41,889 bases of DNA from Treponema sp. (lineage in GTDB: Bacteria > Spirochaetota > Spirochaetia > Treponematales > Treponemataceae): the NCBI GenBank assembly GCA_018385315.1, contig JAHAZJ010000073.1, positions 1 to 41,889 of the forward strand, written 5' to 3'. The notes beneath the pieces are model-generated. The model was given only the letters and a program-made list of their open reading frames with translations. It was not told the origin of the DNA and made no database searches. Positions 20,351 to 41,017 of the stretch are shown here, in pieces. Within the stretch, counting starts at the first letter, position 1. Every line of letters begins with the position of its first letter. The translations under genes were made by a program, and so were the position numbers.

Positions 20351-20357
20351 CAAAAAA

Positions 20358-20395
20358 GGGCTGATTAATAACTTATAAATGCTATTAATCAGCCC
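20358..20395. terminator. Bidirectional terminator between proA and the symporter gene
   Basis: A perfect 13-bp stem (20358-20370 with 20383-20395). On the minus strand it is followed by six T; on the plus strand by ATTTATTTT. It serves two convergent genes. Confidence 0.85.
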
Positions 20396-20434
20396 ATTTA
20401 TTTTGCTTAATGCAAATCTAAATTAAAAATTTTA

Positions 20435-22739: not shown

Positions 22740-23528
22740 ATGAAAATCGGTTGTATTGGAACAGGTGCAATGGGTGGCGCAATTATGCGTGCTGTTTGCA
22801 AAAAATATGATGTAAAAAACATTCTCGTAACAGATAAAAATGTTGAAATGGGAAAAGCCTTTGCAAAAGAAACGGGAGCTACATTTGTTGCTTCAAACAA
22901 AGATGTTTTAACTGCAGATTACATTTTCCTTGCTGTAAAACCACAATTTTTAGGAGATGTCTTTGATGAAATTGCATCTTCTATTTCAGAAAAATCTGTA
23001 ATCATTTCTATGGCTGCAGGTGTAAAAATTGAAAAATTAAACTCATGGGCTCCAAAAGCTCGCTTTATAAGAATGATGCCAAATGTTTGTGCCATGATTG
23101 GTCAGGCAATGACTGCCCTTTCTTATAATTCAAATATTACAAAAGAAGAAGCTGATACAGCTGTTCAGATTTTAAGCTCTGCTGGTAAAGTAGAAGTTGT
23201 TCCAGAAAAATTAATGGATTGTGTAACAGGTGTAAGTGGTTCAGGTCCTGCTTTTGTATTTATGTTTATTGAAGCAATGGCAGATGCTGCCGTTCGTTGC
23301 GGAATGCCTCGCTGTCAAGCTTATACTTATGCTGCTCAGACAGTTTATGGTTCAGCAGGTATGGTTTTAGAAACAGGAAAACATCCTGCAGTTCTTAAAG
23401 ATATGGTTTGTTCACCAGCCGGAACAACAATCGAAGGTGTTGCAGCTTTAGAAAAAGATGGTCTTAGAGATGCCGTTATTGATGCCGTAACAGCCGCTTA
23501 CAACAAATCAGTTTCATTGGGTAAATAA
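22740..23528 (+). CDS. proC: Pyrroline-5-carboxylate reductase
   Basis: A 262-aa NAD(P)H-dependent reductase for the last step of proline synthesis. The N-terminal Rossmann motif MKIGCIGTGAMGGAIMRAV, the substrate loop VSGSGPAFVFMFIEAMADAAVRCGM and the C-terminal VCSPAGTTIEGVAALEKDGLRDAVIDAV are standard. I place the start at ATG 22740, because the upstream in-frame ATG at 22728 is itself part of the strong GGGAGGAAAT ribosome site. It is 13 nt after proB and should be co-transcribed with it. No terminator hairpin is obvious after it. Confidence 0.95.
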   Translation: MKIGCIGTGAMGGAIMRAVCKKYDVKNILVTDKNVEMGKAFAKETGATFVASNKDVLTADYIFLAVKPQFLGDVFDEIASSISEKSVIISMAAGVKIEKLNSWAPKARFIRMMPNVCAMIGQAMTALSYNSNITKEEADTAVQILSSAGKVEVVPEKLMDCVTGVSGSGPAFVFMFIEAMADAAVRCGMPRCQAYTYAAQTVYGSAGMVLETGKHPAVLKDMVCSPAGTTIEGVAALEKDGLRDAVIDAVTAAYNKSVSLGK

Positions 23529-23569
23529 AGTATAATCCCAGTTATCTTTATTATATCATAAAAAAACTT

Positions 23570-23575
23570 TATAAT
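23570..23575 (+). promoter_or_regulatory. -10 box of metF, leaderless type
   Basis: A consensus TATAAT ends 6 nt before ATG 23582, with no Shine-Dalgarno between. The -35 region (near 23547) is AT-rich and not convincing. Confidence 0.4.
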
Positions 23576-23581
23576 ATTAAT

Positions 23582-24472
23582 ATGTTAATGAACACAAATA
23601 AAACAATATTTTCTTTTGAAATCTTTCCTCCAAAAAAAAATATGCCTATTGAAACAATCTTTAGTACTTTAGATGAACTTAAAGATTTGCGACCTGATTT
23701 TATTTCCGTTACTTTTGGTGCAGGTGGTAGTGAAAATTGTGACAATGCCCTTGCTATTGCAAAACGTATTAAAGATGAATGCAAAGTAGAATCTGTTATT
23801 CACATGCCAGCCATAAACATGACAAAAGCTGATGCAAAATACTGTCTCGAACAGTTTCAAACTGCAGGTATAGAAAATATCCTTGCTCTTAGAGGCGACA
23901 GAGTAGAAGGAAAAGAACCTTGCAGCGACTTCCCCCATGCCAGCGACTTAATAGAATTTATTTCTGCTTTTGATAAACTTCGCACCGATGGCAAAAAATT
24001 CCATATTTTTGGTGCCTGCTACCCAGAACTTCATCCCCAATCAGATTCTGTTTATTCCGATATAGATAATCTTAAAAAGAAAGTTGATGCTGGAGCTACA
24101 CATCTTTTGTCTCAGCTCTTCTTTGATAATGAAAAATTCTTCCGTTTTCAGGAACGCTGTCAGATTAAAGGTATAAATGTTCCAATTGAAGCTGGAATCA
24201 TGCCTGCTACAAATAAAAAATCAATTGAACGCATGGTAAGCATGACAAACGCTCAGCTTCCAAAAAAGTTCACAGATATGATGGAACGTTACGGTGAGCA
24301 TCCAGATGCAATTAGAGATGCAGGTATTGCTTATGCTATCGACCAGATTGTTGACCTGGTAACTCACGGTGTTCAGGGCATTCATTTATACACAATGAAT
24401 AATCCTCATGTAGCAAGAAAAATTTACGAAGCAACAAAGAGCTTATTTGAAGTTCCACCATTAGTAAAATAA
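23582..24472 (+). CDS. metF: Methylenetetrahydrofolate reductase
   Basis: A 296-aa flavin-dependent TIM-barrel reductase that makes 5-methyl-tetrahydrofolate for methionine synthesis. Motifs: FSFEIFPPKKN with the catalytic Glu, DFISVTFGAGGS, HMPAINMTKADAKYCLEQFQ, ENILALRGDR, FGACYPELHP, VDAGATHLLSQLFFDNEKFF, EAGIMPATNKKSI and GIHLYTMNNP. Length fits the bacterial single-domain enzyme. Start is ATG 23582 from the promoter position; ATG 23588 is also possible. It appears monocistronic and ends 66 nt before the palindrome controlling the ABC operon. Confidence 0.95.
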   Translation: MLMNTNKTIFSFEIFPPKKNMPIETIFSTLDELKDLRPDFISVTFGAGGSENCDNALAIAKRIKDECKVESVIHMPAINMTKADAKYCLEQFQTAGIENILALRGDRVEGKEPCSDFPHASDLIEFISAFDKLRTDGKKFHIFGACYPELHPQSDSVYSDIDNLKKKVDAGATHLLSQLFFDNEKFFRFQERCQIKGINVPIEAGIMPATNKKSIERMVSMTNAQLPKKFTDMMERYGEHPDAIRDAGIAYAIDQIVDLVTHGVQGIHLYTMNNPHVARKIYEATKSLFEVPPLVK

Positions 24473-24514
24473 ACTTCATTTCCAGCTTAATTCATAGGCT
24501 TTGATATAAATTTC

Positions 24515-24543
24515 TTGACAATCCCCCTTAAAGTGTGTATATC
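24515..24543 (+). promoter_or_regulatory. Promoter of the ABC transporter/GntR operon
   Basis: TTGACA (24515-24520), 17 bp, TATATC (24538-24543). The -10 box lies inside the palindrome at 24523-24565, as expected for a repressor-controlled promoter. The predicted start is near 24550. Confidence 0.55.
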
Positions 24544-24565
24544 TAATATATACACTTCAAGGGGG
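24523..24565. promoter_or_regulatory. 43-bp palindromic operator of the YtrA-type operon
   Basis: The outer arms are CCCCCTT (24523-24529) and AAGGGGG (24559-24565). The inner arms are AAGTGTGTATA (24531-24541) and TATATACACTT (24547-24557), with one mismatch and a 5-nt centre. The inner TGTGTATA/TATACACT part resembles GntR YtrA-subfamily operators and covers the -10 box. The outer right arm doubles as the ribosome site. The GntR gene at the end of the operon is the likely ligand, giving autoregulation. Confidence 0.7.
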
Positions 24566-24569
24566 ATAT

Positions 24570-25409
24570 ATGTATTCACTCAAAATTGAAAATCTTTCTA
24601 AAACATATCCAAAATTCAAACTGGATAATGTTAGTTTCTTTCTAGAACCTGGCTATATTATGGGCTTTATTGGTCGTAATGGTGCTGGTAAAACAACAAC
24701 TCTTAAATCAATGTTAAAATTTGTTCATCCTGATTCAGGAAAAGTGGAAATCAATGGTTATGATATTGAAAAAGAAGAATTCGCCGTAAAAAATTCCATT
24801 GGTTTTGTTTCTGGCCTTGACGGTTTTTATAACTCAAAAAAAATAAAAACAGTAACAGATGTTACAAAAAAGTTTTTTCCAAACTGGGACGATGAACTTT
24901 ATCACAATCTTTTACAGAAGTTTAATCTTGATGAAACAAAACTGATAAAATCTCTTTCTGCCGGTATGAAAGTAAAATATCAGATTGCACTTGCCATGAG
25001 CCATGATGCAAAACTTTTAATTCTAGATGAACCAACTTCCGGATTAGATCCAGTAAGCCGTGATGAATTGGTTGTTCTTTTTCAAGATTATGTTGCAGAT
25101 GGTGAACATTCTATTTTATTTTCAACCCATGTTACTTCAGATTTAGACAAATGTGCTGATTACGTAACTTACATTAAACAAGGAAAAATTATTGAAAGTT
25201 CTGACATTGTAAGTTTTAAAGAAAAATATCTTTTGGTCTCTGGCAAAACTGATGATTTAACAGATGCATTAAAAGAAAAAATAATTGGTTTCCATGCTCA
25301 CAATTTTGGTTTCGAAGGCATGATTCTTGCATCAGATAAAGAATCCTTCCAAAATTGCGAAATAGTAAAACCAAATCTTGAAGATATTATGATTCATTGT
25401 GAACGCTAA
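24570..25409 (+). CDS. ABC transporter ATP-binding protein (YtrB-like)
   Basis: A 279-aa ABC ATPase. Motifs: Walker A GFIGRNGAGKTTTLKSMLKF (from about residue 32), a divergent Q-loop segment GFVSGLDGFYNSKK, signature LSAGMKVKYQIALAMSHDAK, Walker B LLILDEPTSGLDP and H-loop FSTHVTSD. The last 70 residues form a small extra domain common in BcrA/YtrB-type exporters. It heads an operon with a permease (15 nt on) and a YtrA-type GntR regulator, an organisation often linked in other bacteria to cell-envelope stress or antibiotic export; the transported substrate is unknown. Start ATG 24570 follows AAGGGGGAT. Confidence 0.9.
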   Translation: MYSLKIENLSKTYPKFKLDNVSFFLEPGYIMGFIGRNGAGKTTTLKSMLKFVHPDSGKVEINGYDIEKEEFAVKNSIGFVSGLDGFYNSKKIKTVTDVTKKFFPNWDDELYHNLLQKFNLDETKLIKSLSAGMKVKYQIALAMSHDAKLLILDEPTSGLDPVSRDELVVLFQDYVADGEHSILFSTHVTSDLDKCADYVTYIKQGKIIESSDIVSFKEKYLLVSGKTDDLTDALKEKIIGFHAHNFGFEGMILASDKESFQNCEIVKPNLEDIMIHCER

Positions 25410-25424
25410 CAGGAGGTGTAATAT

Positions 25425-26084
25425 ATGAAACAGTTTTTAAATAAAGAATTTAAGCTTTGTCTTGCACCAATTAATTATGTATATATGAGTTTTGCAATAA
25501 TGACATTAATTCCAGCATATCCTCGTTATGTACCATTCTATTTTTTCTGTGTCAGCATTCTGCACTTGTTCAACAATGCCATGCTGAATAAAGACCTTGA
25601 ATACTCTATGATTTTGCCAATCCTTAAAAAGGATATTGTAAAATCTCGTTGTCTTTTAGTAGCAGTTTATGAACTGATTTGTACTTTATTATCTATTCCT
25701 TTTTCCTACCTTTTTACATTGATTATGCCAACTGGTAATGATGCCGGAATTGAAGGTAACGTGGCTTTCTATGGCCTTGTTTTGATTCTTTTTTCCGTTT
25801 TCAATTTCATATTCTTTACAAGCTACTATAAAAAAGCATATAAAACAGGAGTTTCATTTGTCAAAGCAACAATAGCCTTTTGGATTATATTTATGATATT
25901 AGAATTTCCAATCTGGACAAAAAATGTTTTCAACATTCCTTTCTTTTTGATGTTAGACAGCACAGATTTTGCCTGCCAGATTCGTCAGCTTCCACTTTTA
26001 GCTGCAGGAATAATAATTTATTTTTTAGGCTGGCTTGTAACTTATAAAATGTCAGCTAAACGCTTTGAAAAAGTAGACTTGTAA
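25425..26084 (+). CDS. ABC-2 type membrane permease subunit
   Basis: A 219-aa membrane protein with about six hydrophobic segments and basic loops. The N-terminal motif LLNKEFKLCLAP-like start (MKQFLNKEFKLCLAPINYVY), NKDLEYSMILPILKKDIVKSR and the final YKMSAKRFEKVDL are typical of short ABC-2 permeases paired with YtrB/BcrA ATPases. It has a very strong ribosome site (AGGAGGTG) and lies 15 nt after the ATPase gene. It likely dimerises and forms the transport path for the ATPase. Substrate unknown. Confidence 0.85.
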   Translation: MKQFLNKEFKLCLAPINYVYMSFAIMTLIPAYPRYVPFYFFCVSILHLFNNAMLNKDLEYSMILPILKKDIVKSRCLLVAVYELICTLLSIPFSYLFTLIMPTGNDAGIEGNVAFYGLVLILFSVFNFIFFTSYYKKAYKTGVSFVKATIAFWIIFMILEFPIWTKNVFNIPFFLMLDSTDFACQIRQLPLLAAGIIIYFLGWLVTYKMSAKRFEKVDL

Positions 26085-26089
26085 TTTTT

Positions 26090-26455
26090 ATGGATATAGT
26101 TCTAAACCAGGCTTCAGACATTCCAATCTATTCTCAAATCTATAATCAGATTAGTTCTCAGATTATGAATGGAACACTGCAGCCTGGAACTAAGTTACCT
26201 GGCATTCGTCAGGTAGCAAATGAATTAAGAATTTCTGTCATTCCAGTAAAAATGGCCTGGGAAGAATTAGATAAAAATGGATTTATAAAAACTGTTACTG
26301 GCAGTGGTACCTTTGTTAATAATCTTCCATCCCAGGAAATTGAATCAAAGTTAAATGAAAAAGCCGAAACCCTTGTTCTTAAAACCTGCAAAGAGGCCAA
26401 AGAATCAGGAATTTCGGCTGATACTTTAATCGATTTAATTAGAAAACTCTACTAA
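26090..26455 (+). CDS. GntR family transcriptional regulator, YtrA subfamily
   Basis: A 121-aa repressor-type protein. An N-terminal winged helix-turn-helix (about residues 10-77: PIYSQIYNQISSQIMNGTLQ, LPGIRQVANELRISVIPVKMAWEELDKNGFI, GSGTFV) is followed by only about 45 residues, the short helical dimerisation tail that defines the YtrA subfamily. It is the last gene of the ABC operon, 5 nt after the permease, with no separate Shine-Dalgarno, so translation is probably coupled. It most likely binds the 43-bp palindrome at the operon promoter. Its stop codon is 3 nt from the convergent PPIase gene. Confidence 0.92.
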   Translation: MDIVLNQASDIPIYSQIYNQISSQIMNGTLQPGTKLPGIRQVANELRISVIPVKMAWEELDKNGFIKTVTGSGTFVNNLPSQEIESKLNEKAETLVLKTCKEAKESGISADTLIDLIRKLY

Positions 26456-26458
26456 ATC

Positions 26459-27508
26459 TTATTTAACCAAAGTTACATTGAAACAAATATAAGAGTTACC
26501 AGGAATTCCTGCCTGTGGAATACCATATGCACCATAAGCTAACTCTGGTGGAATAACCATCTTTCTTGTTTCACCAATTTTCATTTCTGCAACCATTTCA
26601 TCAAAACCAGGAATCATATCTCCGGCACCAACATTAAATTCAAGTGGTTCGTGTCCCTGTGGATGGAATTTTTGAGAAGCATCAAATACTTGTCCGTCTG
26701 GAAGATATCCAACATATTCACAAGTTACTTTTTTTCCTTTACCAATTACAGAACCCTTTCCTTCTTCCATAATCTGGTAATAAACACCACTTGCAGATTT
26801 TGTACAGCCTTCAATTAATTTTTTCCAAGCTGCTTCTTTTTTTGCCTTTGATTTTGCTTCTACTTCTGCATTCAATCTGTCAAAATCAGCCTGTGTAGCA
26901 GTGAATTTTTCAGCATCTGCACCCTGACGAATAATTTTTACAGATTTAATAACATCATTTGTTTTCATTTTATTTACAATTTCCTGCCCAGTTACAACTT
27001 CACCAAAAATTGTATGTTTTCCTGTAAGCCATTCTGTTGGAACAATTGTAATAAAGAACTGACTTCCATTTGTATTTGCACCAGAGTTTGCCATAGCAAG
27101 TTTTCCTGGAACATCAAATTTCAAATCATCAACAAATTCATCTGCAAATTGATATCCTGGACCACCAGTACCATTTCCAGCAGGATCACCACCCTGAATC
27201 ATAAAGTTCTGGTTATCACCATTTGCAATACTGATTACACGATGAAATTTTAAACCATCATAAAAAAGTTTTCCTTTTGCAGCATCCAATGTACCTTCTG
27301 CAAGACCAACAAAGTTTGTTACTGTTAAAGGTGTTTTGTCATAATACAATTTCAAACAAATTTCACCTTTACTAGTATCCATAATTGCAAAGATACCTTC
27401 TTTACCTTCAATAGCTTTCATTGCTTTACTCCCAGGATTACATGCGATACTTGAAAGAACAAATAATCCGAACATTAATCCAATAATAATTTTTTTCATT
27501 TTTCTCAC
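26459..27508 (-). CDS. Dual-domain peptidyl-prolyl isomerase lipoprotein (cyclophilin plus FKBP)
   Basis: A 349-aa lipoprotein; signal peptide ends LFVLSSIAC with Cys23 as lipid site, so it works in the periplasm or on the surface. Residues about 40-195 are a cyclophilin (FHRVISIANGDNQNFMIQGGDP, GKLAMANSGANTNGSQFFIT, WLTGKHTIFGEV). A charged helical linker follows (about 200-235), then an FKBP domain (GKKVTCEYVGYLPDGQVFDAS, PGFDEMVAEMKIGETRKMVIPPELAYG, IPGNSYICFNVTLVK). Both catalyse proline isomerisation during protein folding. This cyclophilin-FKBP order is the dual-family immunophilin type I recall being described from treponemes. Start GTG 27508 has AAGGA at good spacing; ATG 27499 is the alternative. 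Confidence 0.9.
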   Translation of the reverse strand: MRKMKKIIIGLMFGLFVLSSIACNPGSKAMKAIEGKEGIFAIMDTSKGEICLKLYYDKTPLTVTNFVGLAEGTLDAAKGKLFYDGLKFHRVISIANGDNQNFMIQGGDPAGNGTGGPGYQFADEFVDDLKFDVPGKLAMANSGANTNGSQFFITIVPTEWLTGKHTIFGEVVTGQEIVNKMKTNDVIKSVKIIRQGADAEKFTATQADFDRLNAEVEAKSKAKKEAAWKKLIEGCTKSASGVYYQIMEEGKGSVIGKGKKVTCEYVGYLPDGQVFDASQKFHPQGHEPLEFNVGAGDMIPGFDEMVAEMKIGETRKMVIPPELAYGAYGIPQAGIPGNSYICFNVTLVK

Positions 27509-40944: not shown

Positions 40945-40945
40945 T

Positions 40946-40972
40946 CTAATTCCTTATATTATAAGGAATTAG
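40946..40972 (+). terminator. Strong hairpin directly after gyrA
   Basis: A perfect 12-bp stem (left arm begins CTAATTCCTTAT, right arm ends AAGGAATTAG) with a 3-nt loop starts 2 nt after the gyrA stop. There is no T tract, so it may stabilise the mRNA 3' end or mark processing rather than end transcription by itself. Confidence 0.5.
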
Positions 40973-41017
40973 AGAATATAAATTACTATTTTTAACAGAT
41001 TACAGTTTTATTTTAAG

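Follow-up and report, generated by a model that had tools for sequence, protein, structure and literature searches.

A probable palindromic operator that may also mask the ribosome-binding site of an ABC transporter operon in Treponema

An ABC transporter operon of this Treponema sp. is preceded by a long palindrome. Its core fits an operator for the YtrA-type GntR repressor that the operon itself encodes, and an extension of its arms over the Shine-Dalgarno sequence (SD) may hide the ribosome site in RNA arriving from the upstream gene metF. This combined explanation, given for the analysed species and a sister species, is judged to lie slightly on the probable side. The window is the whole stretch of 41,889 nucleotides that was analysed (contig JAHAZJ010000073.1). 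The features involved are as follows.

23582-24472, plus strand: metF, the co-directional upstream gene; its stop lies 97 nt before the ABC start
24515-24520, plus strand: −35 box TTGACA, exact in 48 of 48 upstream regions; abuts the left edge of the palindrome
24521-24567, no strand: whole inverted repeat, 22-nt arms and a 3-nt centre
24521-24529, plus strand: left outer arm ATCCCCCTT, with complementarity to the SD; carried solely by RNA coming from upstream
24531-24557, no strand: core AAGTGTGTATAT-CTA-ATATATACACTT, the putative operator of the YtrA-type repressor
24538-24543, plus strand: −10-like TATATC as read from the sequence, inside the palindrome with a 17-bp spacer to the −35 box
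24559-24567, plus strand: right outer arm AAGGGGGAT, holding the SD (24559-24565) of the ABC gene
24570-25409, plus strand: ABC transporter ATPase (PF00005)
25425-26084, plus strand: ABC-2 type membrane protein (PF13346)
26090-26455, plus strand: YtrA-type GntR regulator of 121 aa, the last gene of the operon (PF00392; PmtR-like below the cut-off; predicted model with fold matches)

The palindrome as probable operator of the operon

The earlier note had described a 43-bp palindrome whose CCCCCTT/AAGGGGG arms extend beyond a GntR-type core, the right arm being the SD of the ABC gene. This description was confirmed. The part from C-run to G-run (CCCCC...GGGGG) occupies exactly 24523-24565, and the right outer arm contains the SD, AAGGGGG, 4 nt ahead of the ATG at 24570. 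The full repeat is longer (24521-24567). Its arms are 91% complementary and are separated by CTA at 24543-24545. Two pairs are imperfect, A24530/C24558 and G24537/T24551, the latter being a G.U pair in RNA. No other inverted repeat in the 41.9-kb window scores as highly as this palindrome, and none of four first-order Markov resamplings contained an inverted repeat above the reporting threshold. Behind the palindrome in strength come the inverted repeats at 40945-40973 and 20354-20399, with 14 and 19 arm positions. A search of 23400-26700 against Rfam gave one hit, which stayed below threshold and was taken as chance: a microRNA model from animals, aligned with the hairpin (26.3 bits vs. 81).

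The orthologous operon was compared in 47 genus relatives and the window. These were obtained from 60 fetched loci after leaving out L045, which has no ABC gene, L066, where the start of that gene is truncated, and L082-L092, in which no ABC match reached 200 bits. L108, a genus ABC match with neither core nor GntR gene, was not counted, and same-genome duplicates of the L096 type were counted once. Of 49 loci from the genus that were fetched with E values of 1e-29 or less, 48 had the ABC gene co-located at 200 bits or more; the one locus lacking it is L045, at a contig edge, and L066 counts as having the gene. Removal of eight near-duplicates from the 48 operons gave a set of 40. The nearest record found was a Treponema MAG from horse faeces, with an ABC protein 96% identical.

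The core GTGTATAT-nnn-ATATACAC is found in all 48 upstream regions, 26 of them matching perfectly, 20 with one mismatch and 2 with two. Because this core and the exact TTGACA are present in 48/48 and the operon encodes a YtrA-type GntR protein, the core very probably serves the repressor of this operon as its operator; the operator claim of the earlier note thus finds support in the comparison of sequences. In the genome itself, only one further core match with two or fewer mismatches was found, at C37:53-71 on another contig, close to its edge. YtrA regulons usually comprise a single operon for each regulator (PMC4494728).

The regulator has an N-terminal GntR winged helix (PF00392, residues 14-76). 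Its model (mean pLDDT 92) ends in a short tail of two helices, 81-105 and 110-120; such a two-helix C-terminal part, shortened to about 50 residues, is a trait of the YtrA subfamily. A second trait, a long palindromic upstream site with GT and AC far from the centre, was seen in all 48 operons. Fold matches along the whole length were the small regulators 3neu and 4r1h, 2ek5 from C. glutamicum and 6sbs, the YtrA of S. acidocaldarius. The NCBIfam PmtR equivalog model scored 95.9 bits against a cut-off of 200. By its sequence, the protein is related to PmtR, below the cut-off of that model. In PADLOC, the ABC protein had 15 matches, which were weak or to ATPases in general, and the other two proteins of the operon had none. 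The GntR gene and a convergent lipoprotein gene on the minus strand (26459-27508), which we take to be FKBP/cyclophilin-like, end 4 bp apart (26455-26459). This leaves no room for an operon terminator outside the coding sequence.

Many relatives (L033-L081) have nested or repeated half-sites, with GTGTTATATT or GTGTATATT before GTGTATAT and the mirror image on the right, yielding palindromes of up to 43 bp. They resemble the additional boxes of GntR sites, which in the YtrA type often lie 7-12 nt from the site centre (PMC4494728). A wider set comprised 43 loci, mostly from other genera or phyla: 29 provided a start, a core (at most four mismatches) and a −35 box, and 14 had no usable start or core. 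Removal of L140, L154, L160 and the genus member L216 reduced the 29 to 25. The Nesterenkonia (Actinobacteria) loci L153, L154 and L160 have the same ABC-GntR gene pair and a related site (3-4 mismatches) behind a TTGAC box, which indicates that module and site cross phyla.

The −35 box and TATATC, a weak −10, place the transcription start at about 24549-24551, a position predicted from the sequence. This promoter is missing from a scan for consensus promoters, since the scan demands a T at the sixth −10 position. Judging from conservation and from what is known of the family, the repressor bound at the core would cover the −10 region and the likely start, blocking the TTGACA promoter. Its release would allow transcription to start inside the right half. 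The resulting mRNA would have the right arm only and lack the 5′ strand of the hairpin, with a free SD about 8-10 nt from its 5′ end.

Predicted masking of the ribosome site in read-through RNA

In the window species and its sister, the palindrome reaches outward, its left outer arm being complementary to the SD. RNA from metF is predicted to carry both arms and to form a 21-pair hairpin that buries the SD. Such burial would make read-through a poor source of transporter. No terminator-like site was listed by the scan between metF and the ABC gene, and read-through is therefore possible.

Folding predictions agree with this mechanism in the window. The folded RNA segment of 61 nt has −29.3 kcal/mol (z −6.4) and its counterpart in the sister −23.8 kcal/mol (z −5.6). 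The probability of an unpaired SD was 0.03 in the long read-through RNA and 0.40 in the short RNA of the local promoter; the values for the sister were 0.16 and 0.51. Shuffling the ten bases after the −35 box raised the window value to 0.25 on average (p 0.041). The same shuffle in the sister was not significant (p 0.18). Of 95 gene starts called in the window and in 20 stretches of the genome, the ABC start is the one with the most stable local folding. SD accessibility alone is less special, with about 6% of these starts at 0.03 or below. By these calculations, masking of the SD in read-through RNA is a sound prediction.

Across the 48 operons, a long RNA that hides the SD (≤0.1) together with a short RNA that frees it (≥0.3) was predicted for 10, and the reverse for none. 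The next relatives with a co-directional metF upstream, L034 and L035, are not among them: the long RNA hides the SD no more than the short one, with unpaired probabilities of 0.51 vs. 0.52 in L034 and 0.17 vs. 0.03 in L035. The absence of extra masking behind metF in these two speaks against a long-standing function. The masking claim of the earlier note thus holds for the predicted folding of the window sequence, hidden in the long and freer in the short RNA, and fails as a switch in L034 and L035.

The outer arms proved restricted to few operons. A symmetric match over the SD with at least six pairs and 80% pairing was found in 2/48, the window and its sister; in L075, all five bases of a shorter SD are paired. 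Outer arms unconserved in relatives had been named in advance as evidence against the claim, and this is largely the outcome. The outer arms as a conserved part of the operator were rejected on this count, and the masking structure is likewise not conserved in the relatives. Sequence comparison thus indicates that the CCCCCTT/AAGGGGG arms do not belong to the conserved operator. The extension over the SD is real and lineage-specific.

Promoter geometry differs as well. In 43/48 operons, TTGACA and the core are 21, 23 or 24 nt apart, compared with 14 nt in the window and its sister; three others, L041, L077 and L079, have 13-15 nt. Comparison of the 14 nt in the window and its sister (L033) with the 23 nt in their next relatives, L034-L038, suggests that the operator half supplying the −10 has shifted by about one helical turn.

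Of the nine sites of the left outer arm, three differ between the sister and the window; in the right arm, one site differs. Two of the three left-arm changes keep the RNA pair as G.U. The internal mismatch has moved by one position, and both species have a 21-pair stem. These changes would fit maintenance of an RNA helix and are too few for proof.

The strongest alternative is a plain operator with incidental outer complementarity. The shorter −35-operator distance would have put the spacer opposite the SD, followed by drift or by quasi-palindrome mutation through template switching, a known process. Read-through would be rare or harmless and the RNA hairpin without a role. This explanation is a serious possibility that we hold to be somewhat short of probable. 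It agrees with the restriction of the arms over the SD to two operons, with the unusual 14 nt, with the location of all left-arm differences of the sister at outer-arm sites and with the overall null result for leader accessibility given below. It has more difficulty with the nine bases ATCCCCCTT opposite AAGGGGGAT, for which base composition gives a chance of about 2e-6 (computed post hoc), with the G.U pairs retained by the sister and with the anti-SD patches that other operons have in the same position, matched to their own SD.

The hairpin could also be a 3′-end element of the metF mRNA, a terminator or stabiliser, rather than a mask. The stem begins 48 nt after the metF stop, where no other terminator-like site was detected. 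The tail, ATATGTATTC, lacks a U run on either strand and the terminator scan does not contain the hairpin; a metF terminator was rejected for these reasons. A co-directional metF upstream was found in only four of the genomes searched, the window, G082, G154 and G133. In G138 (L039), metF adjoins the operon on the opposite strand in divergent orientation; the neighbourhood is partly kept there and read-through from metF is impossible. A 3′-end function is accordingly unlikely. Least likely of all are additional half-sites in the outer arms that offer the repressor extra DNA contacts, with an SD overlap that has no RNA role, since CCCCCTT is unlike the half-sites GTGTTATATT and GTGTATATT and is absent from relatives sharing the core, even though many relatives extend the palindrome by repeated half-sites and YtrA-type sites often have additional boxes (PMC4494728).

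The putative operator is of the ordinary, well-conserved YtrA type. The RNA lock built into it stands as a plausible and cheaply testable mechanism that is predicted from folding, with conservation mostly failing for the exact structure.

Anti-SD patches behind the −35 box in the genus

Other operons of the genus also have short anti-SD patches behind the −35 box, such as GTCTCC facing GGGAGA in L056 and TCCTCC facing GGAGG in L060. Tests for this looser idea were designed after the sequences had been seen and used relatives that are not independent; their support is mixed.

The 12-mer after the −35 box paired with its own SD region better than under permutation, with p 0.017 at one of 15 offsets tested (0.063 without the window); offset −30 gave 0.036. 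For a 10-mer and the SD alone, own pairs reached −3.43 and swapped pairs −2.86 (p 0.0026; 0.030 without the window). Ordinary promoters had no such own-versus-swapped effect (p 0.19). A patch of −5 kcal/mol or lower was present in 13/40 operons and in 4/86 ordinary promoters (Fisher 6e-5), the latter having five or six of six −35 matches and 15 being exact. Smaller control sets had 0/7 each at this threshold, and none of 300 shuffled sets reached the observed mean pairing. Reversed patches paired almost as well in the genus (−3.16 vs. −3.43); reversal keeps CCTCC-like words.

The orientation of the upstream gene could be called for 37 of the 40 operons. It was co-directional in 10/12 cases with a strong patch and in 10/25 others. 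With the first gene caller, Fisher's test gave 0.015 and a rank test 0.023; without the window, the value was 0.035. The association was weaker at a threshold of −4 (0.094). A second gene caller gave 0.055 (39/40 callable) and a permutation within clusters 0.044. SD accessibility in the folded leaders of the 40 operons had no overall shift (mean p 0.48 and 0.52). Single p values of 0.05 or below occurred in 7 and 6 of 40 operons and p values of at least 0.9 in 8 and 4 of 40; they did not track upstream orientation (0.45). Outside the genus, no orientation effect was observed (p 0.59, 23/25 callable). The own-SD effect there, p 0.001 (n = 29) and 0.0006 (n = 25), is confounded by base composition (r 0.41).

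These observations would be united by a recurrent lock against read-through in the YtrA-type ABC operons of Treponema: an anti-SD patch directly 3′ of the −35 box that is present only in upstream-derived RNA, re-evolves with its own SD mostly behind co-directional genes and has merged with the operator palindrome in the window species. We regard this generalisation as a lead of low probability. If it were true, a repressor-controlled operon would not leak via the transcription of its neighbour.

Relation to known systems and meaning for the operon

The operon resembles the YtrA subfamily, including B. subtilis YtrA and S. aureus PmtR, in its small regulator, which has about 120 aa and ends in two short-tail helices, the ABC operon and a single long palindromic promoter site (PMC4494728). 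PmtR of S. aureus keeps its ABC operon repressed through a 36-bp site that overlaps the start point (PMC5080381). The regulator gene is last here and first in pmt. Further differences from the known YtrA and PmtR systems are the location of the SD in the outer arm of the palindrome and the match to the PmtR model below its cut-off.

Masking of a ribosome site in upstream RNA has precedents. In IS10-type protection against outside transcription, read-through RNA hides the gene start; IS10 is an insertion sequence and uses its terminal inverted repeat, whereas an operator would be used here. In phage T4, I-TevI represses its close promoter through an overlapping operator. RNA from upstream promoters folds and hides the ribosome site, and transcripts of the close promoter do not include the 5′ strand (PMC2988022). 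I-TevI is a phage homing endonuclease and its masking is shown by experiment; here, the regulator is a GntR repressor and the masking is predicted. In contrast to I-TevI, one palindrome would be both operator and hairpin. In the T4 lysozyme gene e, the long early RNA masks the SD and the late promoter sits within the DNA that specifies the 5′ strand of the masking structure (PMC3014915). That case concerns phage timing, has no operator and was measured (about 100-fold), whereas masking in the window is a prediction. Among the literature matches listed, with subscription journals mostly outside their range, no bacterial chromosomal repressor operon had this double use of operator and mask.

A repressor controls its own promoter only, and compact genomes in general face leakage by read-through from a neighbour. 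I-TevI is a documented case in which an operator is combined with a read-through mask (PMC2988022), and the combination would be of value in an ordinary bacterial operon. If the palindrome of the Treponema operon acts as DNA operator and also as RNA mask, both leaks would be closed by one element.
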